A stretch of DNA of 32,964 bases from a virus. The DNA is taken from the IMG/VR virus record IMGVR_UViG_3300022074_004717, positions 1 to 32,964 of that record, one strand, 5' to 3'. The stretch's first letter is position 1, and each line of letters starts with the position of its first letter. Positions 5,492 to 31,199 of this stretch are shown piece by piece. Position numbers and translations under genes: made by a program. The notes beneath the pieces are model-generated. The model was not told the origin of the DNA, searched no databases, and saw nothing but the letters and a program-made list of their open reading frames with translations.

Positions 5492-5620
5492 TCATTTTTT
5501 AATTGGTCCAAATACTTTACATTTTTTACAGTTAGGACCTTCACATTCCCAACCTTTATGGCAGTGATCACAACCCTTGCCACCACATTTAGTGCAGACT
5601 ATATGAGATTTATCGGACAT
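5492..5620 (-). CDS. 42-residue zinc-binding protein (DnaJ-like cysteine repeats)
   Basis: A short gene of 42 residues with six cysteines: CTKCGGKGCDHCHKGWEC, then CEGPNCKKC. The CxxCxGxG-type spacing is like the zinc-binding repeats of DnaJ, so it probably binds one or two zinc ions. The start is well supported: GGAGGAC sits 4 bases before the ATG, and the ATG overlaps the last 11 bases of gnd, giving translational coupling. Function unknown. Confidence 0.8.
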   Translation of the reverse strand: MSDKSHIVCTKCGGKGCDHCHKGWECEGPNCKKCKVFGPIKK

Positions 5621-6674
5621 GATGTCCTCCGAACATATAACGCATTCCGTTAAGGACACGGTTTGCAAATTCTCCTAATCTTCTAGAGTTGAATCGTTCA
5701 AAGAGGGCAGCAGAGATAACAGGGGCAGGTACACCAAGGTCCACAGCAGCGTGAACAGTCCAACGACCCTCACCACTATCGCTAACTCCTCCACCGAACT
5801 TGCTAAGCTCTCTATCGCCGCGTAGTACATCAGCGGTAAGATCAAGCAACCAAGAACCGACCACACTGCCACGACGCCATAACTCAGCAACTTCAGCAAC
5901 ATCAATATCATATTGATAGTCTTCCGGATTCTCCATCGGAGCAACCTCGGCATCCCCTTCCTTAATGTATTTGGAGCCAAGATCCCCAGAATGCAGAATA
6001 TCCAACCCTTCAGCGTATGCCTGCATGATCCCGTATTCGATTCCATTATGCACCATCTTTACAAAATGCCCAGCGCCAGGTCCCCCACAGTGTAGCCAAC
6101 CATACTCAGCAGATGTTGCGTGGGAATATGGATTAGTGCGGGCTGCAGCACCAATTCCCGGTGCGAGTGCCCTAAAGATTGGAGCGCAGATGGATACTGC
6201 AGTATTTGTACCACCAACCATAAGACAGTATCCACGCTCCAGACCGTAAACTCCACCACTAGTACCGCAATCAATATATTGGATGCCAAGTTTGTCCAAC
6301 CTTTCTGCTCTCCTGCGAGAATCTTTAAAGTTGCTATTGCCATGGTCAATAATAATATCCCCGTCGCCAAGTAATGGTAGTAGTTCATTTAACGTGTCCT
6401 CAACTAGTTCTGCAGGAATGATAAGTTGAAAAATTCCAGGACACTCTGAGTAGATCGTCTCACCAGATTTCTCACCGTATATAGACACTTTTTGTTTTAC
6501 TACTTGAACAAGGCTTTCCAAAGAATCTGCAGCTGCAGTAATATACCCACTTTCTTCTGCCTCTTTTGCTTTGGCATAGTTTCTACGATATCCATAAGTT
6601 TCAATACCTTCTTTAATCATTCGGCGGGACATACCTTCGCCCATCCGACCAAGACCAATAATACCAACTCTCAT
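5610..6674 (-). CDS. gnd: 6-phosphogluconate dehydrogenase (decarboxylating)
   Basis: 354 residues. The N-terminus has the NAD(P) Rossmann motif (GIIGLGRMGEGMSRRM); the middle has DCGTSGGVYGLERGYCLMVG and the catalytic region HFVKMVHNGIEYG with Lys, His and Asn in the usual places. The enzyme oxidises 6-phosphogluconate to ribulose-5-phosphate and makes NADPH; phages use it to steer host carbon into the pentose phosphate pathway for nucleotides. The length fits the short bacterial form, not the 470-residue one. The ATG at 6674 is preferred to a GTG two codons upstream because GAGGTG sits 3 bases before it. It pairs metabolically with talC at 21227. Confidence 0.95.
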   Translation of the reverse strand: MRVGIIGLGRMGEGMSRRMIKEGIETYGYRRNYAKAKEAEESGYITAAADSLESLVQVVKQKVSIYGEKSGETIYSECPGIFQLIIPAELVEDTLNELLPLLGDGDIIIDHGNSNFKDSRRRAERLDKLGIQYIDCGTSGGVYGLERGYCLMVGGTNTAVSICAPIFRALAPGIGAAARTNPYSHATSAEYGWLHCGGPGAGHFVKMVHNGIEYGIMQAYAEGLDILHSGDLGSKYIKEGDAEVAPMENPEDYQYDIDVAEVAELWRRGSVVGSWLLDLTADVLRGDRELSKFGGGVSDSGEGRWTVHAAVDLGVPAPVISAALFERFNSRRLGEFANRVLNGMRYMFGGHHVR

Positions 6675-6676
6675 AA

Positions 6677-6826
6677 TCACCTCGACTTAATTGCTAGTAA
6701 TGTTTCGTAGGGAATCCAAGCAGGTGTTTCATTCTTAAACTGTACTTGGACTTCTGTAATAACTTTTTGAAGATCCTTTCGATAGGATTGTCTTGTATTT
6801 TTCACGCACGATAATGGATTAGTCAT
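6677..6826 (-). CDS. Small hypothetical protein (49 aa)
   Basis: 49 residues, basic and soluble, starting MTNPLSCVKN and ending ETLLAIKSR. A strong GGAGGAC lies 3 bases before the ATG, and the ATG overlaps the upstream stop (ATGA); its own stop lies just before the gnd start. These translation signals support a real gene; function unknown. Confidence 0.75.
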   Translation of the reverse strand: MTNPLSCVKNTRQSYRKDLQKVITEVQVQFKNETPAWIPYETLLAIKSR

Positions 6827-12518: not shown

Positions 12519-12709
12519 TCCTCATCAGATTTATTTTGTATTTTTGCGAACTCTTTTAGCAAAAGCATGTGTTCATTCTCTAAATCTTCAACTCTGTATT
12601 GAAGTTTCTCAACCAGAGTATAGATGTCTTTCACCTCTGCAATGTTCTGATCACCCCTGTCAGAGTCATCATAGAACCATTTCATCATTTTTTTAACTTT
12701 CTTTTTCAT
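12515..12709 (-). CDS. Small coiled-coil protein (64 aa)
   Basis: 64 residues: basic start (MKKKVKKMMKWFY) and a coiled-coil helix (LVEKLQYRVEDLENEHMLLL). No domain recognised. It overlaps the 3' end of pstS by 17 bases and is probably co-expressed with it. Confidence 0.7.
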   Translation of the reverse strand: MKKKVKKMMKWFYDDSDRGDQNIAEVKDIYTLVEKLQYRVEDLENEHMLLLKEFAKIQNKSDED

Positions 12710-13661
12710 TGATAGTTTCTACTATTTTAAGAGACTTTTGACGAAGTTCTTCTGGGAGAGGAACATATCCTAATGAATCCGAAAGTGATTGTGCTTTCGT
12801 GCTCAACATATATCGGAGAGTTTCCTTCACTCCGGGAACAGACTCTGGATATGCAAGAATCCAAGTCAAAGAGACAATCGGGTAAGCATTTTCACCAGTA
12901 GGATTTGGATCTGCACCACGAAGTTTATCGTCTAGGACAATCTTAGCAAGACCAGCAGCAGAAGTTTCTGCATTTGCTTTTACAAAGTTGCCATCCTTAT
13001 TCTGAAGAGCAACTTGTTGGAATTTACCGCCATTCACATAACCATAGTTCAGATAACCAATGGCACCAGGTTGATTCTTGATAGTAGCAGCAACACCAGA
13101 GTTACCTTTATTACCAACGCCAACAGGCCATTGGACTGCCTTACCGGTTCCTACAGTCTTCTTCCACTCTGGAGAGAAAGCAGACAGGGAGTTGGTGAAA
13201 CCTTTGGTAGTACCAGAACCATCAGAACGATAAACAGTCAAAATTTTCTTATCTGCACAACCAAACTCAGACCAGTTAGTAATCTTACCAAGGAACACAT
13301 CAGCAAGTTGAGTCTGTGTCATCTTGGCATCACAACCAAGATAATTGTAAGCAGGAACAATGGCACCACCAGTCATGGGAACATGAACCATAGGCAGTTT
13401 CTGCTTCTTATCACTTACGGCACCATCAGAGGCACCAAAGTCAACAGTCTTGGCATGATACTGACGAACACCAGCACCACTACCAACTGCTTGATAGTTC
13501 ACTTGGTTTCCAGTCTCCTTTGCCATAATTTGGAACCAGGAGTTATACAGGGGAGCAGGGAGGGTTGCTCCTGCTCCATTCAATGTAAACGATGTTTTCT
13601 CTGCGCTACCACAAGCAACCATCAGGGGAGTGACAGCAATAACTGCTGCGAATGCTTTCAT
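12693..13661 (-). CDS. pstS: Phosphate-binding protein of the Pst transporter
   Basis: 322 residues with a lipoprotein signal (ending PLMVAC, Cys at 17) and the PstS phosphate-binding loops: LNGAGATLPAPLYNSWF, GSGAGVRQYHAKTVDFGASD and YRSDGSGTTKGF. PstS captures phosphate for the host Pst ABC transporter; cyanophages use it when host phosphate is low. There is no Shine-Dalgarno. A promoter with a perfect -10 box and an inverted repeat resembling a Pho site lies upstream (13698-13747), so control by the host PhoB/PhoR system is likely, as known for other cyanophage pstS genes. Confidence 0.95.
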   Translation of the reverse strand: MKAFAAVIAVTPLMVACGSAEKTSFTLNGAGATLPAPLYNSWFQIMAKETGNQVNYQAVGSGAGVRQYHAKTVDFGASDGAVSDKKQKLPMVHVPMTGGAIVPAYNYLGCDAKMTQTQLADVFLGKITNWSEFGCADKKILTVYRSDGSGTTKGFTNSLSAFSPEWKKTVGTGKAVQWPVGVGNKGNSGVAATIKNQPGAIGYLNYGYVNGGKFQQVALQNKDGNFVKANAETSAAGLAKIVLDDKLRGADPNPTGENAYPIVSLTWILAYPESVPGVKETLRYMLSTKAQSLSDSLGYVPLPEELRQKSLKIVETINEKES

Positions 13662-16771: not shown

Positions 16772-17619
16772 AACCACTCCTTCGGAATCAAATCATCCAT
16801 CTTATAGTGATCATATTGCGATCCAAACCATTTTTTTGGTGCAACTATTGTCTTATCTGGATTATCAATCAACCATGCGCCCCACCAAGAGAATGAACTG
16901 TTGGCAATAATAGCATCCGTGCATAGGGACATCAAACACAGGTCCGTCCAAGGCACTCTCTGACCATCATACATCTCGTCTGTGGTCTCTGAGAGGATAA
17001 ATCTGTCTGGTTGGAAAAATTCCTGCTCCTGACACCACTCAATCACATCAGAAAATACTACTACGGGAACATTCTCCGGGAACTTTGAGAGTGCTCTCTT
17101 ATAGTAATCCCATGTCTGAACTGGATGTGCTGCTTCCAGATTCACATATGCCCAAGGAAGTTTTGGATCACCACGACGAATGTGTAAGAAAATCTTCTGC
17201 TCAGAATCAATACTATCAATCATGTCTTTACATGGTTCATAGATTTCATCTTGGAACTGAAAGTCCTCACGTATTTCTTTCTCTACGTTCTTAAAGTACT
17301 TTTCAGTCTGAAAGTATCCATCAAGATTCACATCATCAGGGCACAAGTCAAATAGTTCTTGATTGAAATGAAACTCTTTCCATACAGCCCATCGATTATT
17401 ATCTGGAATACCATGATGATCCTCAGTGGCACCAGTCATCTTGAAAGTATCAAACATACAATAGTTGTTCTCACATCCGAACTCATCAACACCCGATGTG
17501 CCTGGTGGTGGAATCACCCAATCAAATCCACGATTCGCAGCAATACCTCTGAGTGCTGCATACTGAAACATCTGGTTGCCAAGACGACCAGACTTACCAA
17601 GTTTATTAAATGATAACAT
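16762..17619 (-). CDS. Glycosyltransferase family 11 (second copy)
   Basis: 285 residues with GT11 motifs: GKSGRLGNQMFQYAALRGIA, FLHIRRGDPK, and IIANSSFSWWGAWLID. In the donor motif the usual RRGDY reads RRGDP. Related to the gene at 15159, but with an insert (about residues 35-60) not shared. Likely uses GDP-L-fucose or a related GDP-L-sugar; the GDP-mannose 3,5-epimerase-like gene in this cluster could supply GDP-L-galactose (inference). Its start overlaps the stop of the upstream SDR gene. Confidence 0.9.
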   Translation of the reverse strand: MLSFNKLGKSGRLGNQMFQYAALRGIAANRGFDWVIPPPGTSGVDEFGCENNYCMFDTFKMTGATEDHHGIPDNNRWAVWKEFHFNQELFDLCPDDVNLDGYFQTEKYFKNVEKEIREDFQFQDEIYEPCKDMIDSIDSEQKIFLHIRRGDPKLPWAYVNLEAAHPVQTWDYYKRALSKFPENVPVVVFSDVIEWCQEQEFFQPDRFILSETTDEMYDGQRVPWTDLCLMSLCTDAIIANSSFSWWGAWLIDNPDKTIVAPKKWFGSQYDHYKMDDLIPKEWLWI

Positions 17620-18473
17620 CAGTAACCATACTCCTTTTTCATTTCATTAAATACTTTTCTTATCCCCACATCAATAGTGGTCTTGGGAACCCACCAATTT
17701 AAAATATAATTGTCTGCCTCATTTCTTTTGTCCATCTGAACACTGTCTTTAGCCAGTCCAGAGTTGATCTTTACATCATGCATATCAATTAATCCAAAAC
17801 AACCCTGAATGATGTTAGCAATCTCTCTGACAGTATTGGAATGGAATGATGTAATGTGAAGTGGATCTTCTGGTTTGAAGTCAGTATAATTTTCCATAAC
17901 TGTCTCTAGTGCTTCGCAGCAGTCCTCAGCATAGAGAAACTGACGTTCTTCTGTTCCATCAGTCAACATTTCAAACTGACCCTCCTCAAATCCTTTACGG
18001 ATGAAGTCAGTAATCACATGAGCTTTCTCCATATCTTTTTCAATACCATAGACATTCCAGAACTTAACAGTCAGTCCTTTGAGTGCAGTAGTATGCAGTT
18101 CACCAACACGTTTCATTACACCATAAGGAGAATATGACATGTTACTCATCTGAGATGAAGCAAATACAAACCTCTTGTGATACTTCTCAAGTAAGGCAAA
18201 GGTATTTGCCATCATGCGGGTATTATTACTAATGAACTCAAACGTATGCTGATACTTCTTAAGATACCGTGAACCACCAACATCAAACGAAAGAAAGAAT
18301 ACAAAATCTGCATTCTTAATAATACTCTCAATATAAGTGTTTGGTGTTACTCTAAGATCATTTTGAGGTCCATCAATAATATCAACACCAATAACATCGT
18401 GCCCCTTGCCTAGAAGATATTCCTCTAAATATGCACCAATCTGACCGGCAGATCCTAAAATAGCAACTCTCAT
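17619..18473 (-). CDS. NAD-dependent sugar epimerase/dehydratase (extended SDR)
   Basis: 284 residues. The Rossmann motif is RVAILGSAGQIGAYLEEYLL, and the catalytic triad is visible: FASSQMSN (Ser) and SPYGVMKRVGE (Tyr and Lys). Extended SDRs convert nucleotide sugars (epimerisation, dehydration or reduction). The ATG at 18473 forms an ATGA overlap with the HAD phosphatase gene, so it is preferred to a GTG two codons earlier. The pairing with a HAD phosphatase and the kinase and nucleotidyltransferase upstream recalls the last step of ADP-heptose synthesis (HldD), but specificity cannot be read from the sequence. Confidence 0.85.
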   Translation of the reverse strand: MRVAILGSAGQIGAYLEEYLLGKGHDVIGVDIIDGPQNDLRVTPNTYIESIIKNADFVFFLSFDVGGSRYLKKYQHTFEFISNNTRMMANTFALLEKYHKRFVFASSQMSNMSYSPYGVMKRVGELHTTALKGLTVKFWNVYGIEKDMEKAHVITDFIRKGFEEGQFEMLTDGTEERQFLYAEDCCEALETVMENYTDFKPEDPLHITSFHSNTVREIANIIQGCFGLIDMHDVKINSGLAKDSVQMDKRNEADNYILNWWVPKTTIDVGIRKVFNEMKKEYGY

Positions 18474-18817
18474 ACCCACAATACTCTCCCATCCTTAAAG
18501 AAGTCGGCACAATTTATTCCTCGATCATCAATGTAATAATCTGCTGTTGGTTTACCAAGATGAAGTTCATGATATTTACATCCCCACAAACTTAATTGTA
18601 TCTCAGTAAACTCGTAAAATTCTTTTTTAGCCAGGTCTGCATTATTTTTATGCCTACCCATTCCTCTGGCAGTTAAGTATATGATGATGTGCCCTTCATC
18701 ATATAGTTTATTTATTTTATCAATCCTATCATTGATTGGCAATGCCTGATCGTATCTGGTTTCGTCAGTTGGTCCAGGAATGCAGATAGTTCCATCAATA
18801 TCAACAACATATTTCAT
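18470..18817 (-). CDS. HAD-family sugar phosphatase
   Basis: 115 residues with HAD motifs: VVDIDGTIC (nucleophile and acid Asp), IYLTARGMGRH (motif II Thr), a Lys in LGKPTADYY and YIDDRGINC (motif IV acidic pair). Short HAD proteins of this type occur in capsule and LPS clusters and remove phosphates from sugar phosphates. Within this cluster it could do the GmhB-like step between kinase and nucleotidyltransferase (inference). Overlaps both neighbours by 4 bases. Confidence 0.85.
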   Translation of the reverse strand: MKYVVDIDGTICIPGPTDETRYDQALPINDRIDKINKLYDEGHIIIYLTARGMGRHKNNADLAKKEFYEFTEIQLSLWGCKYHELHLGKPTADYYIDDRGINCADFFKDGRVLWV

Positions 18818-19632
18818 TCTACTATCACCTCATATAATCCAATACATCCACCTTCTGGGACGTGCCAATTACAAATGCAGCAATATATTTTTCCATTCTC
18901 TTCATATATTGAAAGTGGATCCTCTACAGCACTTTTACCAGTAATAAGGTCTGGACCCATAACAGAGGTCTTTAGATCAGAAGTAAGGGTATATAAGTAT
19001 GGTTTATGATTCCAGGCATCTGTAGTTCTATGTCCCAATCCAACATATAAATCAAGTTTTTCGCTATAAATTAACGGACTACCACCTCTGCTCGATGAAA
19101 TGGGCAGTCCTCTCTTCACATTTTCAAATGGTGTCACCCAGGTACACTCTCCTGTTTCCACATCACAATGTAGAATATTAATTTCAGGATCGATAGTTAA
19201 GATAATGTACAACTCATCATCTTTTACAAGTGCCATCCAGTTTTTTCCAAGGACTCTAAGAGGTGATGGAGGAACTCCATCGATAAAAAGATTGATTGCT
19301 CTTTCCTCTAGAATATCAACCAACTTATATCTCAGTATCTCTTGATGATTTGGATCCCAAGTTAAAGAATAAGGTTTACTATTATACACAAAGGTTCTAG
19401 GATCCTCACCCTGTGTTATCGGTTTTCTGTATATGAGATTAAAATCTTCATCATAATGAATAATGTCCAGAACATCATCTAAACTGGCATTACCAGTTCT
19501 GCATGTGCCAACGTAACCTTTACCACCAGGATATTTTACCATACTGGCATACATTCCAATATCATAATATCCATCAGATTGTCTGGTCCAATGATGGAAG
19601 TCTTTTATATGCTTTAGAGTTGCTGTAGTCAT
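18814..19632 (-). CDS. Five-bladed beta-propeller protein, GH130/GH43-like
   Basis: 272 residues with repeated beta-propeller blades. An EDPR motif (GEDPRTFVYNSKPYSLTW) and RGGSPLIYSEKLDLYVGLGH plus AVEDPLSIYEENGKIYCCIC resemble GH130 mannoside phosphorylases and related propeller enzymes acting on mannose-type glycans; some members make rather than break bonds. It lies among glycosyltransferases, one base after the GT10 gene, so it may transfer or trim a sugar in the same glycan. Catalytic residues beyond EDPR are not certain. Confidence 0.65.
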   Translation of the reverse strand: MTTATLKHIKDFHHWTRQSDGYYDIGMYASMVKYPGGKGYVGTCRTGNASLDDVLDIIHYDEDFNLIYRKPITQGEDPRTFVYNSKPYSLTWDPNHQEILRYKLVDILEERAINLFIDGVPPSPLRVLGKNWMALVKDDELYIILTIDPEINILHCDVETGECTWVTPFENVKRGLPISSSRGGSPLIYSEKLDLYVGLGHRTTDAWNHKPYLYTLTSDLKTSVMGPDLITGKSAVEDPLSIYEENGKIYCCICNWHVPEGGCIGLYEVIVE

Positions 19633-21226: not shown

Positions 21227-21898
21227 TCAATTCATCCAAGCAGAGAAATCTTTCATGAATCCATTATAAGACTCTGTTGTTTTGGGATGGGAAACCATCT
21301 CCTTAATCACAGGAAGTCCTGTGGTTACAATATCAGCACCATAATCCCATGCATCGCATACGTCCTGCTGTGTGCGAATACTACCAGCAATGATCTGAGT
21401 ATCCAAACCATTCTCAAGGATGTAACGTCTAGTTCTCTTCAAAGCTCGCTCTACATCACCACCGTGTTGCTTGAGGCGGCAATAGAACAGAGAGACATAC
21501 TTAGCACCAGCAGAGGCACAATGGATAAGTTGCTGCTCGCTGTAGCAAATGGTAGCGTTGATCTTCACACCATTCTTAGAGCAAGTCTTAATTGCCCTCA
21601 GTTCATCAAATCCAACAGGGATTTTGACATACAAATCAGGACATACAGTAGAAAACTTTTCATAGATCTCACATGCTTGCTTCACAATCGCATCATATTC
21701 TTCAGCAAAAACTTCTACACTTAGAGAAAGATTCTCTGCTCCACAATACTCAGAGAGTTTCATGATCAAGTCATCAAAACTTCCTTGTGGTTCCTTAGCA
21801 ATAATAGATGGGTTGGTAGTTACACCCTGAATCACACCCATATCATGTGCTACCTTAATCTCATCAAGGTTAGCAGTATCAGCAAACAGATAATTCAT
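21227..21898 (-). CDS. talC: Transaldolase (TalC / fructose-6-phosphate aldolase type)
   Basis: 223 residues, the short TalC type. Motifs: FADTANLDEI, GVTTNPSIIAKE, the Schiff-base Lys in DLYVKIPVG, and QIIAGSIRTQQD, with TTGLPVIKEM near the end. Transaldolase moves dihydroxyacetone units between pentose-phosphate intermediates, interconverting sedoheptulose-7-P and fructose-6-P. Cyanophage talC is known as a carbon-redirecting gene, but here it is inside a sugar cluster, with an ATGA overlap to a cupin and followed by a methyltransferase, so it may also feed the cluster's own precursor pathway. Confidence 0.93.
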   Translation of the reverse strand: MNYLFADTANLDEIKVAHDMGVIQGVTTNPSIIAKEPQGSFDDLIMKLSEYCGAENLSLSVEVFAEEYDAIVKQACEIYEKFSTVCPDLYVKIPVGFDELRAIKTCSKNGVKINATICYSEQQLIHCASAGAKYVSLFYCRLKQHGGDVERALKRTRRYILENGLDTQIIAGSIRTQQDVCDAWDYGADIVTTGLPVIKEMVSHPKTTESYNGFMKDFSAWMN

Positions 21899-22320
21899 TC
21901 GTCCTCAGTAAATACGTAAGTTTTGCCGTCTTCGACGATGTTAGAGTCAGTATCATCATCTTTATTTGACCATTCTATCACAACTGTATCTTCAATTGCA
22001 ATACGCATATGCATCAATCCAGGCGGTATGTGAAATACATCACCTGCTTCGAGAATAATTGATTTGTTTTTTGCTCTTCCAATCCTCATTCCCACCTTTA
22101 ATTTACCAGATTGGATATAATAAAACTCGTCCTTATTCACATGATACTCCATGCTACTCTGAGTGCCACCTTTCATGAATACTTCTTTGAGTGTGAAGTC
22201 TTCAGTTGCAAACACAGTAGTGATGTATCCCCAATACTTGTCTCTCTTCTCCTCACACTTTAAGACTGGTGGTAAATCTTGTCTCCCATAACTATTGTCC
22301 GTAGTATTTGTTGATTCCAT
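21895..22320 (-). CDS. Cupin-domain protein (sugar isomerase/epimerase-like)
   Basis: 141 residues from the ATG at 22320 (an ATG eight codons earlier is possible). Double-stranded beta-helix motifs: MEYHVNKDEFYYIQSGKLKV and AGDVFHIPPGLMHMRIA, with His and Glu ligands. This type occurs in sugar-phosphate isomerases (phosphomannose isomerase C-terminal-like) and sugar epimerases, and as binding proteins. It sits between araD and talC, so a sugar phosphate is the likely ligand. Overlaps the end of araD by 29 bases. Confidence 0.75.
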   Translation of the reverse strand: MESTNTTDNSYGRQDLPPVLKCEEKRDKYWGYITTVFATEDFTLKEVFMKGGTQSSMEYHVNKDEFYYIQSGKLKVGMRIGRAKNKSIILEAGDVFHIPPGLMHMRIAIEDTVVIEWSNKDDDTDSNIVEDGKTYVFTEDE

Positions 22321-22996
22321 TTTTTCTTTCAAAGTGTTTTTCATACAAAATTTCAGATAGATCCGACATTTCTAGTGATGGGTTTATCTTTATAGTATAA
22401 TAAGCCATCTCTGCTATTTCTTCAAGCACAATAGCACACTCAAGAGTCCTCTTTGCTGAATTAGAGAACACCATCACACCATGACCAGGTAAAAGTATTG
22501 CTGGAATATTAAGTGGATTAATTTTATACTTTTGGAAGTAGTCAACAACAGACTGTCCTAGATTTTTTTCATATTCATCTAGTTCATTTCTGTGTAGTTG
22601 TCTAGCAACAGGAATATCAGAGAGAAAATAATCAGCATGAGTTGTTCCTAAAATAGGAATTGATTTTAATGCCTGTGCCCAAGAAGTAGCAAACTTAGAA
22701 TGACTGTGTATAATTGATTTTATCTGAGGAAATGCTTTATAAATCTCCAAGTGGATGGCAGTATCTACGGATGGTTTCATTCCCGAGATCTGATTACCAG
22801 TATAAAGTTCTATGATACAAAGATCACTAAACTTTATTTCGTCGAAATTGACCCCAGAAGGTTTTATCACAACGTGCTTTCCATCTTTAGAAAGCACACT
22901 AGCATTACCCCAAGTTAATTTAACTAGATTATTTTCTTTTAATGCCTTGTTGAGTTTGAGACAATCCTCAATCTCATTCAATATTGTTGGAAACAT
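22292..22996 (-). CDS. L-ribulose-5-phosphate 4-epimerase-like class II aldolase
   Basis: 234 residues from the ATG at 22996, chosen over a GTG 12 codons earlier. Class II aldolase/epimerase motifs: WGNASVLSKDG, KPSGVNFDEI, zinc histidines in IIHSHSKFA and LLPGHGVMVF, and GTTHADYFLSDIP with the Asp typical of AraD rather than FucA. The end, ERKNGINKYYGQ, matches the AraD C-terminus. AraD interconverts L-ribulose-5-P and D-xylulose-5-P, so it could pull pentose-phosphate carbon into an L-sugar. Such a gene is unusual in phages. Overlaps the kinase gene by 23 bases. Confidence 0.88.
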   Translation of the reverse strand: MFPTILNEIEDCLKLNKALKENNLVKLTWGNASVLSKDGKHVVIKPSGVNFDEIKFSDLCIIELYTGNQISGMKPSVDTAIHLEIYKAFPQIKSIIHSHSKFATSWAQALKSIPILGTTHADYFLSDIPVARQLHRNELDEYEKNLGQSVVDYFQKYKINPLNIPAILLPGHGVMVFSNSAKRTLECAIVLEEIAEMAYYTIKINPSLEMSDLSEILYEKHFERKNGINKYYGQ

Positions 22997-23747
22997 AATC
23001 AAATGCTCTTTTATTAGCAAAGTGTGGATCACCTGTTGCTAGCAAAGCAGCATAGAAGCAATCACCTGCACCAATCGTATTTATTGGTTTGTCTACAGCA
23101 TCTGTAAAATATTTGACACCATTAACCATACATCCCCTAGATCCTAATGTAACACAAATGTTAGTTATTCTATCCGTAAATTGGGATTCGTACTCATTAC
23201 AAACAATATAATCCATATCAAAGTACATACCATAATTATGCTCCTTACTAGAAACTTGAGAAGCAGCATAAGTTATCTTTGCATTGTTCGCCACATGAGA
23301 AACAAATGACTCTTTTATGAATCCACACCGATAATCTGAGAACGCTATCACATCATACTCATTCAGATCAAAATTCTCTAGAACTGATACTGATGACTCA
23401 TCATTAACATCATTTATCTGTAAATGTTTATATCTAGAATCACCATGACTCACCCAATATCTTGTCTTCTTGTTATTTTTTCCCTGAAAATAATTCAGTA
23501 CCTTGACTCCATATTGTTCCTCAAAAATTTTTCCCATCTCATAACTCATAGACGTGGCAAAAGTTACATTTCTACCAAATTTAGAGAGATATTTTGCTAC
23601 ATTAGCAGCTCCACCATAATCAGTCATCCGAGTTACTAATGAAGTTTTAATAGTAGGAGACTCTAGAGAAAGACCACAAGCCTCCAATTCAATAGTTTCG
23701 TCAAGGATGGTGTCACCAACAACCAAATACTTCAAATTTTCTCGCAT
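22974..23747 (-). CDS. PfkB-family sugar kinase, HldE/RfaE kinase-like
   Basis: 257 residues. The start (YLVVGDTILDETIELEACGL) and YGGAANVAKYLSKFG resemble the kinase half of HldE, and NTIGAGDCFYAALLATG is the PfkB C-terminal signature with the catalytic Asp. HldE kinase phosphorylates heptose-7-P at C1. Its partner nucleotidyltransferase domain, usually fused behind it, is instead on the preceding gene (23732-24592), overlapping by 16 bases. Substrate unknown; a sugar phosphate made by the neighbouring isomerase is likely. It is shorter than a full PfkB kinase (about 300 residues), so some loops are missing. Confidence 0.85.
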   Translation of the reverse strand: MRENLKYLVVGDTILDETIELEACGLSLESPTIKTSLVTRMTDYGGAANVAKYLSKFGRNVTFATSMSYEMGKIFEEQYGVKVLNYFQGKNNKKTRYWVSHGDSRYKHLQINDVNDESSVSVLENFDLNEYDVIAFSDYRCGFIKESFVSHVANNAKITYAASQVSSKEHNYGMYFDMDYIVCNEYESQFTDRITNICVTLGSRGCMVNGVKYFTDAVDKPINTIGAGDCFYAALLATGDPHFANKRAFDYVSNNIE

Positions 23748-24592
23748 GTCTCCATATCCCGAATTTTATGCATGACATTAGTAGTTGAGTATTCGCCAAC
23801 AAGAGGATAAACTTTCACTTGAATACTACCAGGTATTCCATCACGTTCTCTTACTTCATTTGCGGTCCATTCGGACCCCTTTACAATAACTTCTGGACTT
23901 AATGTCTCATATAAATCTTGAAGTTCTTCAGTTGAATCAAAGATAACAACTTCATCAACATACTTTATGGATTCAAGAATTCTTCTACGATCTTCTTCAC
24001 TATTAATTGGTCTATTATTGCCCTTTAATTCTCTTACTCTACGATCAGAATCAATAGCAACAACAACGTTTGTTCCTTGTATTTTAGAGAACTTCAGCAG
24101 TTCAAGATGCCCTTTATGTAAGATATCAAAAACACCATTTGTAAGTACAATTCCACTATTATTATCAATCTTAGTGGTGCGTTTGATATGGCGACCCTCA
24201 CCCCATGCCTCTTCCAACCACATCCTTGACATCTCTCTCATTTCAATTTGAGATGACAACCAGGAACCAAGGCATAGCACGTTAGAATCATTGTGTTCCC
24301 TAGACTTAACAGCAGTCAGTTCATTATGTGCAAGAACTGCACGAACTCCAGGATAGCGATTAGCAACAATACTCATACCGACACCAGTTCCGCAGAGGAG
24401 AATGCCTCTATCTGCCTCCTTATTACTTACTATGGTAGAAAGTTGTGCAGCATAGTCTACATAATCAACACTTACGTCTGGTGTGAATGGTCCAATATCA
24501 ATAACACGATAACCTTCACCCTTCAAAAAACTTTTTAATTGTTGCTTGTCTGTAACTCCATTATGATCAGAAGAAATAATAATAGTTTTCAT
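23732..24592 (-). CDS. Fusion: RpiB-type sugar-phosphate isomerase + HldE-type nucleotidyltransferase
   Basis: 286 residues in two domains. Residues 1-140 are RpiB/LacAB-like: SSDHNGVTDKQQLKSFL, the catalytic Cys in LLCGTGVGMSIVANRYPG and SREHNDSNVLCLGSW. Residues about 145-280 are a cytidylyltransferase-like domain: GIVLTNGVFDILHKGHLELL (HxGH) and VIVKGSEW, as in the HldE adenylyltransferase that makes ADP-heptose. Joining an aldose-ketose isomerase to a nucleotidyltransferase places the first and late step of NDP-sugar synthesis on one chain. It overlaps the kinase gene by 16 bases and the upstream methyltransferase gene by 4. Confidence 0.9.
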   Translation of the reverse strand: MKTIIISSDHNGVTDKQQLKSFLKGEGYRVIDIGPFTPDVSVDYVDYAAQLSTIVSNKEADRGILLCGTGVGMSIVANRYPGVRAVLAHNELTAVKSREHNDSNVLCLGSWLSSQIEMREMSRMWLEEAWGEGRHIKRTTKIDNNSGIVLTNGVFDILHKGHLELLKFSKIQGTNVVVAIDSDRRVRELKGNNRPINSEEDRRRILESIKYVDEVVIFDSTEELQDLYETLSPEVIVKGSEWTANEVRERDGIPGSIQVKVYPLVGEYSTTNVMHKIRDMETCEKI

Positions 24593-28667: not shown

Positions 28668-28739
28668 TAGGACCGCTGGGAGTTGAACCCAGTTCACACC
28701 GTTATAAGCAGTGGGCCTTAACCGATAGGCGACGGTCCC
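28668..28739 (-). tRNA. tRNA-Ile(UAU)
   Basis: 72 bases folding into a full cloverleaf: acceptor GGGACCG/CGGTCCT, D arm GCCT...AGGC with GG in the loop, anticodon stem CACTG/CGGTG with loop CTTATAA (anticodon UAU), T arm CTGGG-TTCAACT-CCCAG. No CCA is encoded. Reads AUA, a codon most bacteria read with a modified CAU tRNA. Confidence 0.9.
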
Positions 28740-28919
28740 TCAGGATCCTTCTTCGTGATCTGTGTATAAGCGTATGAGTTCATCATCCGCTGGGATCATC
28801 ACTGCTTTATTTCCATCTTCATTTATTACGCCAAGTGTTTCTCCATTCTCAACTCGGTCCATAAGTTCTTCCCAGTTCTCCTGCCAGTGTTCCACGGTGT
28901 AAAAAGGAATGTCATCCAT
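28740..28919 (-). CDS. Phd/YefM antitoxin-like protein (59 aa)
   Basis: 59 residues from the ATG at 28919 (MDDIPFYTVEHWQENWEELM). The pattern, an N-terminal strand, a helix with WEELMDRVENGETLG, the turn VINEDGNKAVMIPADDEL and an acidic end, resembles the Phd/YefM antitoxin fold. No toxin gene is seen next to it. It might counter a host toxin or repress its own promoter; it could also be an unrelated small protein. The stop abuts tRNA-Ile. Confidence 0.6.
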   Translation of the reverse strand: MDDIPFYTVEHWQENWEELMDRVENGETLGVINEDGNKAVMIPADDELIRLYTDHEEGS

Positions 28920-28939
28920 AGGTGTAATATGTATAAGAG

Positions 28940-29013
28940 TCGGGGCGACACGATTCGAACATGCGACCTCTGCTTCCCAAAAGCAGCGTTCTACCAAGCT
29001 GAACTACGCCCCG
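28940..29013 (-). tRNA. tRNA-Pro(UGG)
   Basis: 74 bases: acceptor CGGGGCG/CGCCCCG, D arm GTTC...GAAC, anticodon stem CTGCT/AGCAG with loop TTTGGGA (anticodon UGG), T arm GCATG-TTCGAAT-CGTGT. No encoded CCA. Confidence 0.95.
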
Positions 29014-29331
29014 TCAAATTCCTGATCCGATAAATTGACCGTTGTCATCTTCATCGTCGTCGTCCTCATCATCAACCAGTTCATCCAGTTTCAATTTCTG
29101 AATTCTTTGATTAAGTTCAGTATACTCATCATCTGGCATTTTGTCAAAGTTTACAACCAGAAGCGGTTCACCAGAAGTAACTTCGTTCATCTCAGGATGT
29201 TTTATCGTGGGTTTCTTTGAATACCCATTTCTACCACTACTGATCATCCAACCCTGTGCCATGATTGAAAAAGCAAAAGCAACCATAGCAACCCAAAGAA
29301 ATAAAAATAGATATTGTGGAATGTCATTCAT
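29014..29331 (-). CDS. Membrane-anchored protein with acidic C-terminus (105 aa)
   Basis: 105 residues. One N-terminal transmembrane helix (YLFLFLWVAMVAFAFSIMAQ), a conserved-looking region (GWMISSGRNGYSKKPTIKHP), and a very acidic run near the end (LVDDEDDDDEDDNGQ). No enzyme motif. The stop abuts tRNA-Pro and the ATG overlaps the upstream stop (ATGA). Confidence 0.75.
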   Translation of the reverse strand: MNDIPQYLFLFLWVAMVAFAFSIMAQGWMISSGRNGYSKKPTIKHPEMNEVTSGEPLLVVNFDKMPDDEYTELNQRIQKLKLDELVDDEDDDDEDDNGQFIGSGI

Positions 29332-29591
29332 GATAGCACCTTAAGAACTTCCTCCTTTACATTATCTATAATCTCCTGCATTACGTCAACATCTATACCC
29401 ATAAACGGAGGGATCATACCAATCACACGGAAAAATCCCTCCGCAAATAATGCAAGGAATAAAATACCAAGACACATACTGATGATTGATGCGTTACGAT
29501 TATGCTGTCGTATCGCATCCTCAATCATCTCTTCACATTCCTCTTTCGTTACGTAATGTGCTGGTTTAATCTCATTCATTCTGTGAGACAT
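29328..29591 (-). CDS. Single-pass membrane protein (87 aa)
   Basis: 87 residues: a polar start (KEECEEMIEDAIRQHNRNAS), one transmembrane helix (IISMCLGILFLALFAEGFF) and an amphipathic end helix (VMQEIIDNVKEEVLKVLS). Two ATGs (29591 and 29579) are possible with weak ribosome sites. Coupled to the next gene by an ATGA overlap. Confidence 0.7.
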   Translation of the reverse strand: MSHRMNEIKPAHYVTKEECEEMIEDAIRQHNRNASIISMCLGILFLALFAEGFFRVIGMIPPFMGIDVDVMQEIIDNVKEEVLKVLS

Positions 29592-29727
29592 TTCTAAGAT
29601 TTTCCATTGGATCCGGAAGTCCTTTTACTATAGCACATGCTCTCTTATAATAGAAGTTGTCTGTTGTGCCGTTCTCCTCAAATTTCTCTTTAATGATCTT
29701 CCAGTTTTGTAAGTCGTCAGGATGCAT
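29572..29727 (-). CDS. Small hypothetical protein (51 aa)
   Basis: 51 residues starting MHPDDLQNWKIIKEKFEENG, soluble, ending MENLRNVSQNE; contains FYYKRACAIVKGLPDP. Its end overlaps the next gene. A promoter candidate lies at 29758-29786. Function unknown. Confidence 0.65.
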   Translation of the reverse strand: MHPDDLQNWKIIKEKFEENGTTDNFYYKRACAIVKGLPDPMENLRNVSQNE

Positions 29728-29757
29728 AGTAGAAAGAAAATGTCTACATCTCTATTT

Positions 29758-29786
29758 AATGTAGCAACCTGTTACCATGGCGTCAA
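29758..29786 (-). promoter_or_regulatory. Sigma-70-type promoter candidate
   Basis: Minus strand TTGACG (29781-29786), 17-base spacer, TACATT (29758-29763), 31 bases upstream of the ATG at 29727, in the 79-base gap between two genes. It could drive the three small genes downstream and tRNA-Pro. Confidence 0.5.
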
Positions 29787-29806
29787 GTATGTGTGAATTT
29801 ACTAAC

Positions 29807-30055
29807 TTATCTTTCTTCAAAGTCAATTTTACGAACTTTGCGTTTACGCCTCTCCTCTTGATAAAGAAGTTCACTCCTTGAGAAGTGACTATCTATCTTC
29901 TTCTCTACATTAGAAGAAATCATGACAACTCTATCAAGATCAACAGCGCCAACCTTGTTATCAACTACCCTCATCTGATTTGGGCAACCACAGAATTGTA
30001 CTTTACTAGTGGATGTTAGTTCTTTTCCACATTCTTTGCATCTTACGGTAATCAT
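29807..30055 (-). CDS. Zinc-ribbon-like small protein (82 aa)
   Basis: 82 residues. The N-terminus has two cysteine pairs (CKECGKEL and FCGCPNQ) making a probable zinc ribbon; the remainder is helical and basic at the end (EERRKRKVRKIDFEER), which could bind nucleic acid. No exact family recognised. Lies between tRNA-Val and the promoter candidate at 29758-29786. Confidence 0.75.
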   Translation of the reverse strand: MITVRCKECGKELTSTSKVQFCGCPNQMRVVDNKVGAVDLDRVVMISSNVEKKIDSHFSRSELLYQEERRKRKVRKIDFEER

Positions 30056-30078
30056 TTTTCATAGACCTATTTTAAGGA

Positions 30079-30150
30079 TGGGTGAAGAGGGATTCGAACC
30101 CCCGACCAATTGCGTGTAAAGCAACTGCGCTACCACTGCGCCATTCACCC
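30079..30150 (-). tRNA. tRNA-Val(UAC)
   Basis: 72 bases: acceptor GGGTGAA/TTCACCC, D arm GCGC...GCGC, anticodon stem GTTGC/GCAAT with loop TTTACAC (anticodon UAC), T arm GGGGG-TTCGAAT-CCCTC. No encoded CCA. Two bases separate it from tRNA-Asn. Confidence 0.95.
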
Positions 30151-30152
30151 GA

Positions 30153-30224
30153 CTCCCCCGGCAGGATTCGAACCTGCGACCAGACGATTAACAGTCGTCG
30201 GCTCTACCGCTGAGCTACAGAGGA
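30153..30224 (-). tRNA. tRNA-Asn(GUU)
   Basis: 72 bases: acceptor TCCTCTG/CGGGGGA with two G-U pairs, D arm GCTC...GAGC, anticodon stem GACGA/TCGTC with loop CTGTTAA (anticodon GUU), T arm GCAGG-TTCGAAT-CCTGC. No encoded CCA. Confidence 0.95.
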
Positions 30225-30242
30225 TTGAGAAGGACCGTAGTC

Positions 30243-30872
30243 CTAGATTATTTCTACTATGTCTTGTGGTTTGATAACAGAATTAAATGTATATGCCTCG
30301 GGGTTAAGTCCCCAAAGATTTTGGAGTGCTTGTTTATCAAGAGATGTAAATCCATAATAGAAAAAAGCAGGACCTTGATAAACATTATATGACATAATGG
30401 TATCTGCTACTGTGAAATCAGGATGATCTCCTTGCCCCCTTGGGTGTCCAAGTCCAAGAGTATGTCCGAGTTCATGACGAAGAATATACTTCTCAAGGAG
30501 ACTAACGTGATCGTCATTGTCTCTAAAGAAAATTTTCATTCTCTTTGTGGTAGCAGATGCTCTACCAACAACTGCATCATCAACAAGAAATGTTGAGTCC
30601 TGATGACCTAAATCACCAAACTCAAGACGAGTGCTATCAGTAATTTCTGGCACTGAAATAAATCGGATGTCATCGTCACGCTTTCTTGTCCTCTTAAAAG
30701 TAATTCCAGTTACTTCATCAATCTCTTCGAGCATAGCACGAATTTCTTTTCTCTCCGCTCGCGATATTGTTTTCTTTTTCCAAGAGTAATTAATTACCTT
30801 ATCATATCCAGACAAGTAATCCATATATCGGAACCAATCATTTGATATGATATCATCAATTGTTTTTTGCAT
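30243..30872 (-). CDS. Metzincin-type zinc metalloprotease
   Basis: 209 residues. The zinc motif HELGHTLGLGHPRG (HExxHxxGxxH) and a downstream Met-turn (DTIMSYNVYQG) define a metzincin, the class with serralysins, astacins and matrix metalloproteases. The N-terminal half has no signal peptide, so it should act in the cytoplasm or be packaged in the virion. Such a protease could cut a host or phage protein; the target is unknown. It overlaps a small upstream gene by 17 bases. Confidence 0.85.
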   Translation of the reverse strand: MQKTIDDIISNDWFRYMDYLSGYDKVINYSWKKKTISRAERKEIRAMLEEIDEVTGITFKRTRKRDDDIRFISVPEITDSTRLEFGDLGHQDSTFLVDDAVVGRASATTKRMKIFFRDNDDHVSLLEKYILRHELGHTLGLGHPRGQGDHPDFTVADTIMSYNVYQGPAFFYYGFTSLDKQALQNLWGLNPEAYTFNSVIKPQDIVEII

Positions 30873-31023
30873 TACTCTCTCTCTTCAATTTAAAGTAAAG
30901 TTTGTAGTACCTTTTTTTCATTTCATCTAAAATAGAAGCATCTTCTAAAAAGTTGAGTCTCCTGCATTGAGCAGAACTACCCTCCAATTCACTTAATAGC
31001 AGTAAGATATCTACTGGTTTCAT
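30856..31023 (-). CDS. Small hypothetical protein (55 aa) before the metzincin
   Basis: 55 residues starting MKPVDILLLLSELEGSSAQC and ending in a basic, tyrosine-rich helix (EMKKRYYKLYFKLKRES). The ribosome site is excellent (AAGGAG, 6 bases before the ATG). It overlaps the metalloprotease start, so the two are translated together; it might be a regulator of it (inference). Confidence 0.75.
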   Translation of the reverse strand: MKPVDILLLLSELEGSSAQCRRLNFLEDASILDEMKKRYYKLYFKLKRESNAKNN

Positions 31024-31041
31024 TTGTTCTCCTTAGGAGAA

Positions 31042-31112
31042 AGCGAAATACGGGACTCGAACCCGTGACACCAACTTGGAAGGATGGGATGTTACCACTA
31101 CACCAATTTCGC
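31042..31112 (-). tRNA. tRNA-Gly(UCC)
   Basis: 71 bases: acceptor GCGAAAT/ATTTCGC, D arm GTGT...ACAT, anticodon stem CCATC/GTTGG with one T-T mismatch and loop CTTCCAA (anticodon UCC), T arm ACGGG-TTCGAGT-CCCGT. No encoded CCA. Confidence 0.92.
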
Positions 31113-31116
31113 AAGA

Positions 31117-31190
<74 letters not shown>

Positions 31191-31199
31191 AAATGAGGA

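Follow-up and report, generated by a model that had tools for sequence, protein, structure and literature searches.

A set of sugar-phosphate genes on the minus strand of a viral DNA sequence, the 32,964-nucleotide stretch at positions 1 to 32,964 of IMG/VR record IMGVR_UViG_3300022074_004717 (hereafter the window), constitutes a conserved module that is found in marine and freshwater phages and in one marine SAR11-group bacterium. The module combines a TalC transaldolase, a cupin, an AraD-type 4-epimerase, an HldA-like kinase, a protein in which an RpiB-like isomerase is fused to an HldC-like nucleotidyltransferase (the fusion), and a small HAD phosphatase (Table 1). From the domains, residues and linkage of these genes we propose, with a probability of about one half, that the module makes, for a surface glycan, a nucleoside diphosphate (NDP)-activated sugar with seven carbons or possibly more, and we class it as a variant of the heptose-type nucleotide-sugar pathways.

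Conservation of the module

The comparison set comprised 36 loci chosen for carrying the fusion, 35 of them viral and one from a SAR11 genome. A scan of viral contigs with the fusion contributed the best 80 of 262 relatives, 20 of which (L001-L020) match both domains, and further loci were added through viral-contig scans with AraD and the cupin. Near-identical contigs and repeats (L002, L004, L006-L009, L018-L020, L167-L182, L184, L193, L199, L207-L222, L224, L226, L227, L229, L230 and L233-L236) were left out of the 36; the fusion of L001 is 100% identical to that of the window, and L005 and L010 share identities and coordinates.

Among these loci, selected for the fusion, the kinase, the cupin and TalC were each present in 36 of 36 (the L190 record has its TalC outside the compared stretch and broken across two frames), an AraD-family gene in 33, and the HAD gene in 34 (counted via tblastn in L231), the other two being cut short where the compared stretch (L190) or the contig (L195) ends. 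HAD follows TalC immediately in 29 of the 36 loci; elsewhere other genes intervene (L003 and the window/L001, where there are three), or HAD lies upstream (L014 and L228) or after AraD (SAR11). The 37 fusions, that of the window included, form 31 clusters at 95% identity, the lowest identity to the window being 46%, and the genes neighbouring the module vary among loci. Fusion and TalC were both present in 30/30 loci from the cupin scan, and the module in 38/40 loci from the AraD scan; the two exceptions, an ordinary AraD with no module (L204) and a fragment of 75 residues where a contig ends (L205), were excluded, and no match to TalC occurs in either record. Because the same genes recur together in 36 loci, the set is one conserved module, beyond chance. 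A preliminary description of the window had placed here five overlapping genes (TalC, cupin, AraD, an HldE-like kinase and the fusion) with HAD and SDR genes downstream; all are present, the five with matching domains, and the genes other than the SDR recur together in the 35 viral loci and the SAR11 genome.

No record of a phage collection of 50,697 records (possibly lacking those closest to the window) covered at least 80% of the fusion, and a description of this gene set was not found among the matches listed in the open-licence PMC literature, subscription papers lying outside that scope. In eight loci (L005, L010, L011-L013 and L015-L017) a fucosyltransferase-family (GT11) gene stands immediately upstream of the fusion, ending just short of the module, and is a possible candidate for a user of the module's sugar.

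Table 1. Genes of the module in the window, with the adjoining SDR gene.
Feature	Positions	Strand	Remarks
Fusion of RpiB-like ketol isomerase (residues 1-143) and HldC-like nucleotidyltransferase (145-280)	23732..24592	-	286 amino acids; domain profiles
PfkB/HldA-like sugar-phosphate kinase, GAGD motif invariant	22974..23747	-	257 amino acids; domain profiles
AraD-type 4-epimerase, catalytic residues kept, Val at Ser75 position	22292..23032	-	domain profiles
Metal-type cupin resembling phosphomannose-isomerase part of GMP_PMI; His68, Glu73, His112 invariant	21895..22344	-	
TalC transaldolase; Phe138 and Glu62 invariant	21227..21898	-	
Small HAD phosphatase, EcbF/BcbF type	18470..18817	-	module member in other loci
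SDR	17619-18479		downstream of five-gene set

Activation enzymes

The five open reading frames in 21227-24592 overlap their neighbours by 4 to 59 bases, and their domain matches are LacAB_rpiB (1.2e-43) and CTP_transf_like (3.4e-17) within the single fusion protein, PfkB (1.3e-10), Aldolase_II (5.1e-41), Cupin_1 (6.7e-09) and TAL_FSA (2.6e-40). The best named model for the window kinase is that of heptose-7-phosphate kinase (TIGR02198, 4.4e-13, 49 bits against a cut-off of 345), and the best solved relative, 4e84, is a heptose-7-phosphate kinase as well (2.8e-09, with the next at 9.7e-07). The nucleotidyltransferase domain scores 125.1 bits with the heptose-1-phosphate nucleotidyltransferase model TIGR02199 (cut-off 181.5), and its best solved relative is 5x9q (2.3e-27), which we take to be HldC. 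The window HAD matches TIGR01689 at 9.7e-09; phrog_1238, the PHROG family of this small phosphatase, is labelled 'phosphoheptose isomerase', which seems wrong. Conserved throughout are GAGD in the kinase (39/39), HxGH in the nucleotidyltransferase (37/37) and D6, D8, T49, K89 and D98 in HAD (34/34). The activation enzymes look heptose-type, because a sister module of cyanophages (see below), with homologous nucleotidyltransferase and kinase, carries an HldD-like epimerase.

With the ADP-heptose pathway (GmhA, HldE or HldA/HldC, GmhB, HldD) the module has in common an HldA-like kinase, an HldC-like nucleotidyltransferase, a small HAD and a ketol isomerase step; it differs in showing no GmhA/SIS and no HldD-like epimerase, in the EcbF/BcbF type of its HAD, and in the addition of RpiB, AraD, TalC and the cupin. 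GmhA/SIS (PF13580) was found in none of 16 large module-bearing records (fragments, four of them of one lineage), while 8 of 14 control genomes scored above the cut-off, which agrees with the earlier remark that the set lacks GmhA. The further claim of one analogue for each step of ADP-heptose synthesis is supported as regards the conserved module, its heptose-type activation enzymes and the membership of HAD, and is not supported at the last step, given to the SDR at 17619. A close homologue of this SDR (71% or more) adjoins the set only in the window/L001, L002, L003, L004 and L014; it is not a fixed part of the module, and the gene was rejected as the final epimerase. An SDR of the broad family, of some kind, occurs in 25 of the 36 loci.

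Isomerase, epimerase and transaldolase

The RpiB domain of the window exceeds the cut-off of the subfamily model PRK05571 (149.8 against 135 bits) and narrowly misses that of the equivalog TIGR01120 (135.7 against 138.65). It has the fold family of the RpiB/LacAB isomerases and retains their catalytic residues D9, H10, C67, T69 (Ser in one sequence), H100, N101, R134, H135 and R138, but differs from them by its fusion to a nucleotidyltransferase, seen in every copy compared, and by N11, N90 and W111, each invariant in 37/37 fused domains. Among 27 ordinary members of the family, drawn from 27 genomes, G/A is commonest at position 11, D occurs at position 90 in 24 and R at position 111 in 25; in the subset of 21 that keep both catalytic His residues, the counts are 21, 18 and 20 respectively. 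W111 lies in the beta5/alpha5 loop, at the place of the phosphate-binding Arg of pentose RpiB (Mt Arg113). According to passages of PMC3755991, Arg113 of MtRpiB binds the phosphate and partly covers the pocket, whereas LacAB, which acts on hexose phosphates, has another residue in place of this Arg and a pocket lengthened by 3 A.

The window AraD (GTG start at 23032; an ATG at 22996, giving 234 amino acids, fits the length of its relatives better) scores 228.2 bits with the equivalog TIGR00760 (cut-off 389.1) and 246.6 with the subfamily PRK08193 (cut-off 257). Its whole-length profile match to Escherichia coli L-ribulose-5-phosphate 4-epimerase AraD (1jdi) is 7.9e-69 and the two have their catalytic residues in common: N28, K42, S44, G45, S74, D76, H95, H97, T116, D120, H171 and Y229 are invariant in 34/34 rows, and E142 and H218 are each kept in 33/34. 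At the position of Ser75, in contrast, 32 of the 34 module proteins have Val, where E. coli AraD and 7/7 ordinary AraDs have Ser. The residue numbering and the zinc and catalytic roles are those of AraD, in which Ser75 has a part in binding phosphate.

TalC has F138 and E62 in 36/36 rows, and the F138 column coincides with the Phe of transaldolases 3r8r and 1vpx; Phe and Glu in place of the Tyr and Gln of fructose-6-phosphate aldolase (FSA) mark a transaldolase and not an aldolase of that type. The possibility that this is the ordinary cyanophage TalC was rejected, as TalC matches in 502 phage records all stay under 60% identity, and the ten matches listed have 36-40% identity to the module protein. 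Each of the 16 large module-bearing records has one TalC match, by coordinates always the module copy (16/16). Because RpiB and AraD are altered at phosphate positions and TalC belongs to the module, the sequences favour an NDP-sugar of seven or more carbons over an NDP-pentose, and the heptose reading is the better fitting of the two offered in the preliminary description.

The cupin and the sister module

The cupin provides a second candidate isomerase. It matches the phosphomannose isomerase (PMI) domain model TIGR01479 in 30 of 37 rows (1.8e-05 and far under the cut-off in the window), 7 of the 37 rows being second-type cupins of the same loci, and its metal site of His/Glu/His is kept in 44/44. 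The predicted structure (predicted local distance difference test, pLDDT, 88.7) has a Z score of 15.0 to the archaeal PMI 7zvy, tied with CapF, Pac13 and other cupins; because the fold matches are tied among cupin families, we claim no function from the predicted structure alone. A second cupin stands right after HAD in L003 (16058-16396; PMI domain match 3.9e-24), and such a second cupin occurs in seven loci. The PHROG label of phrog_7851, 'cysteine dioxygenase', also seems wrong: the family contains the PMI-like cupin of the window.

A sister module of cyanophages consists of homologues of the nucleotidyltransferase, kinase and cupin together with an HldD-like epimerase (P-SSM2, PSSM2_309-313; S-SSM7, SSSM7_126-133). 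P-SSM2 and window proteins are alike at 43% (nucleotidyltransferase), 27% (kinase), 55% (HAD) and 36% (cupin); the sister module differs in having its own HldD-like epimerase and in being without RpiB, AraD and TalC alongside. None of these three was found within 4 kb in 60 kept loci with the nucleotidyltransferase alone. The cupin is present in 50 of the 60 loci and in all 26 of those with full flanks (4 kb on both sides), in which the kinase (26/26), the epimerase (23/26) and HAD (7/26) also occur. The epimerases of P-SSM2 and S-SSM7 score 210-212 bits with the heptose epimerase model TIGR02197 (cut-off 274.6) and 42-53 with GalE. SIS/GmhA was not found in 26 sister-module records, five of which are cyanophage records labelled complete genomes, so that neither module shows GmhA and both have the cupin. 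Because the cupin resembles PMI and accompanies a sister module that has neither RpiB nor GmhA, the role of RpiB as the module's isomerase is in question, and the PMI-like cupin may rival it as the substitute for GmhA. This suggests that a PMI-like cupin may take the place of GmhA in those heptose-type modules of cyanophages that do not have it. In L191 (9085-10558) and L198 (9901-11402) the two modules stand back to back; these phages carry both, and a single infection may therefore yield two activated sugars. Near the sister module of P-TIM68, a gene labelled 'transketolase' (L084, 5326-6471) has its best matches among E1 subunits of 2-oxoacid dehydrogenases.

Bacterial copy

In a SAR11 single-cell genome (contig CACBXW010000002.1, L087), TalC, the fusion, kinase, cupin, AraD and HAD stand in a row, and this contig also carries the 23S-tRNA-16S genes, some 25 kb away from the fusion. 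Just upstream of TalC is a heptosyltransferase-family gene (PF01075, 1.5e-18), and a KdsB-like gene also lies upstream of the module. Its TalC is nearest to another subfamily (TIGR02134, 241 bits, cut-off 282), so that the TalC position is taken here by a different transaldolase. The genome has two kinds of RpiB, an ordinary one (G11, R111) separate from the fused one (N11, W111). This copy is the single bacterial locus among the matches listed in a scan of bacterial genome contigs; besides the SAR11 genome around which the search was centred, the fusion was found in 0/396 genomes of the order and 0/397 of the phylum, and the cupin in 0/384 other genomes of the class. The module is rare in bacteria. 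A further protein of the SAR11 island (L276, 1240-2769; 509 amino acids) has, by eye, a nucleotidyltransferase domain followed by a kinase domain, the reverse of HldE.

Proposed route

As we read the genes, TalC would form sedoheptulose 7-phosphate (S7P) from fructose 6-phosphate (F6P) and erythrose 4-phosphate, and AraD, where present, would invert it at C4. S7P has the same C3/C4 configuration as D-xylulose 5-phosphate, and because of this the product expected of AraD is D-manno-heptulose 7-phosphate. A ketol isomerase, either the RpiB domain or the PMI-like cupin, would then give an aldoheptose 7-phosphate, which the HldA-like kinase would phosphorylate at C1, HAD would relieve of its 7-phosphate and the nucleotidyltransferase would convert to an NDP-heptose; the substrates, the order, the product and the nucleotide are predicted in each case. 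Were RpiB to isomerize with its usual outcome at C2, the sugar would be D-glycero-D-galacto-heptose; were the cupin to do so, manno-configured sugars would be expected, or octoses if TalC used a pentose acceptor. Tentatively, as a suggestion more apt to fail than to stand, the product may be an undescribed nucleotide sugar, for example NDP-D-glycero-D-galacto-heptose or an NDP-octose, with its stereochemistry set before activation by a retuned transaldolase, AraD and RpiB that replace GmhA and the post-activation HldD.

The window also has fucosyltransferase-family (GT10, GT11) and FkbM methyltransferase genes; the likely destination is therefore a virion glycan or one on the surface of the host. 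Passages of PMC7029224 propose that pelagimyophage glycosyltransferases change the host O-chain. The predicted route, seen mostly in phages and in a single polysaccharide island of SAR11, would connect central carbon metabolism with an unusual sugar of glycans, and it suggests that TalC of some phages serves nucleotide-sugar synthesis and not only the pentose-phosphate pathway.

Several observations weigh against this proposal. RpiB and the cupin are two candidate isomerases, where a plain heptose route needs one, and the scores of the window proteins with the equivalog models of heptose kinase, heptose nucleotidyltransferase, AraD and TalC lie under the cut-offs. An HldD-like epimerase was not found in the module within loci that extend some kilobases either side: weak SDR matches (22-32% identity) were obtained for 14 of 37 sequences and none in the window, and the best model for the SDRs of 8 of those 14 loci was GalE in 7 and GDP-fucose synthase in 1. 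The search for a heptosyltransferase in the phages gave nothing convincing for the GT9-like (by eye) open reading frame 25232 of the window with Pfam, NCBIfam or solved-chain profiles, a PF01075 match below threshold in L228 (17.4 against 22 bits), and no Pfam match for the neighbouring genes tried in L232, L017 and L190. The SAR11 island also has a GmhA-like SIS gene upstream of the module. AraD is absent from the entire record in L223, L225, L232 and L233 (33,120 to 196,877 bases), and because these four keep the rest of the set, AraD is not essential to the module; L228 and L231, searched alongside, do have an AraD-family gene, that of L228 belonging to a different subfamily of class II aldolases (PRK06557, 244 bits, cut-off 251).

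The altered pocket of RpiB also has points against it. Of the 27 proteins used for comparison, six are divergent members of the family, the equivalence of W111 to Arg113 is one of loop position and not of superposition, and K96, four residues ahead of the ring-opening His and at the place of LacA Met92, is kept in only 34/37. E. coli RpiB retains Arg at the position of W111 and yet reportedly takes allose 6-phosphate too (a title cited by PMC4783025), so that Arg alone does not exclude longer sugars. The comparison of structures and active sites that had been suggested for the window proteins showed catalytic residues that are kept and pocket positions that are altered in RpiB and AraD; the AlphaFold model of the fusion was poor (pLDDT 58) and was not used.

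Alternative explanations

The alternative that survives best, though we think it rather unlikely, is that TalC, RpiB and AraD serve supply only, refilling S7P or pentose-phosphate pools, and that the cupin substitutes for GmhA in an ordinary NDP-manno-heptose route. The sister module, which has the cupin without GmhA/SIS in its 26 records and without the three supply genes in its 60 loci, is as this explanation would have it. Refilling of pools does not account for an RpiB pocket changed in 37/37 when an ordinary RpiB exists separately in the SAR11 genome, or for the constant fusion of RpiB to the nucleotidyltransferase, and the module is without the HldD that its sister has.

Also unlikely is an NDP-pentose, by way of D-xylulose 5-phosphate, L-ribulose 5-phosphate (AraD), L-arabinose 5-phosphate (RpiB) and, through kinase, HAD and nucleotidyltransferase, NDP-L-arabinose. 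The intact catalytic set of AraD accords with this route, and activated-pentose genes are known from proposals for other phages: excerpts of PMC6024577 propose NDP-pentose genes for DNA arabinosylation in RB69, a likeness to the module, although these belong to other enzyme families (SIS-like and NTP-transferase-like matches), and excerpts of PMC12838424 have Thanatos encoding a UDP-xylose pyrophosphorylase. The route leaves no role for TalC, present in 36/36 loci, and it depends on an AraD that is missing from four records while the rest of the set stays; the changes at the phosphate positions of RpiB and AraD, and a kinase and nucleotidyltransferase nearest to heptose enzymes, also argue against it.

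An NDP-octose would give a step to every enzyme, both isomerases included: RpiB (with AraD) would provide an aldopentose 5-phosphate, to which TalC would add dihydroxyacetone from F6P to form an octulose 8-phosphate, and the cupin would isomerize this for activation by kinase, HAD and nucleotidyltransferase. The resemblance of the cupin to PMI suits such a route, as does the C3/C4 configuration of F6P that TalC products have. We know of no kinase or nucleotidyltransferase of this kind that acts on octoses, and the change in the RpiB pocket would be unexplained if its product were ordinary ribose 5-phosphate; we consider this route quite improbable. That unrelated carbohydrate genes were gathered in a variable phage region, of the sort that collects glycosyltransferases and lipopolysaccharide genes according to passages of PMC7029224, is contradicted by 36 loci in which the same genes stay linked amid changing neighbours, their fusions being as little as 46% identical to that of the window, and is scarcely credible.

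Other features of the window

About one-fifth of positions 12000-32964 matches the T4-like cyanophages S-SM2 and Bellamy at ~79%. Upstream of the sugar genes, the minus strand at 28668-31191 carries six tRNA genes (Ile, Pro, Val, Asn, Gly and Arg). Domains of a PstS-like phosphate-binding protein and of 6-phosphogluconate dehydrogenase, both frequent host-like genes in cyanophages, are encoded at 12693-13661 and 5610-6680 respectively. A 272-amino-acid protein with no Pfam or PHROG match is encoded at 18814-19632 and is also present in L003 and L189.

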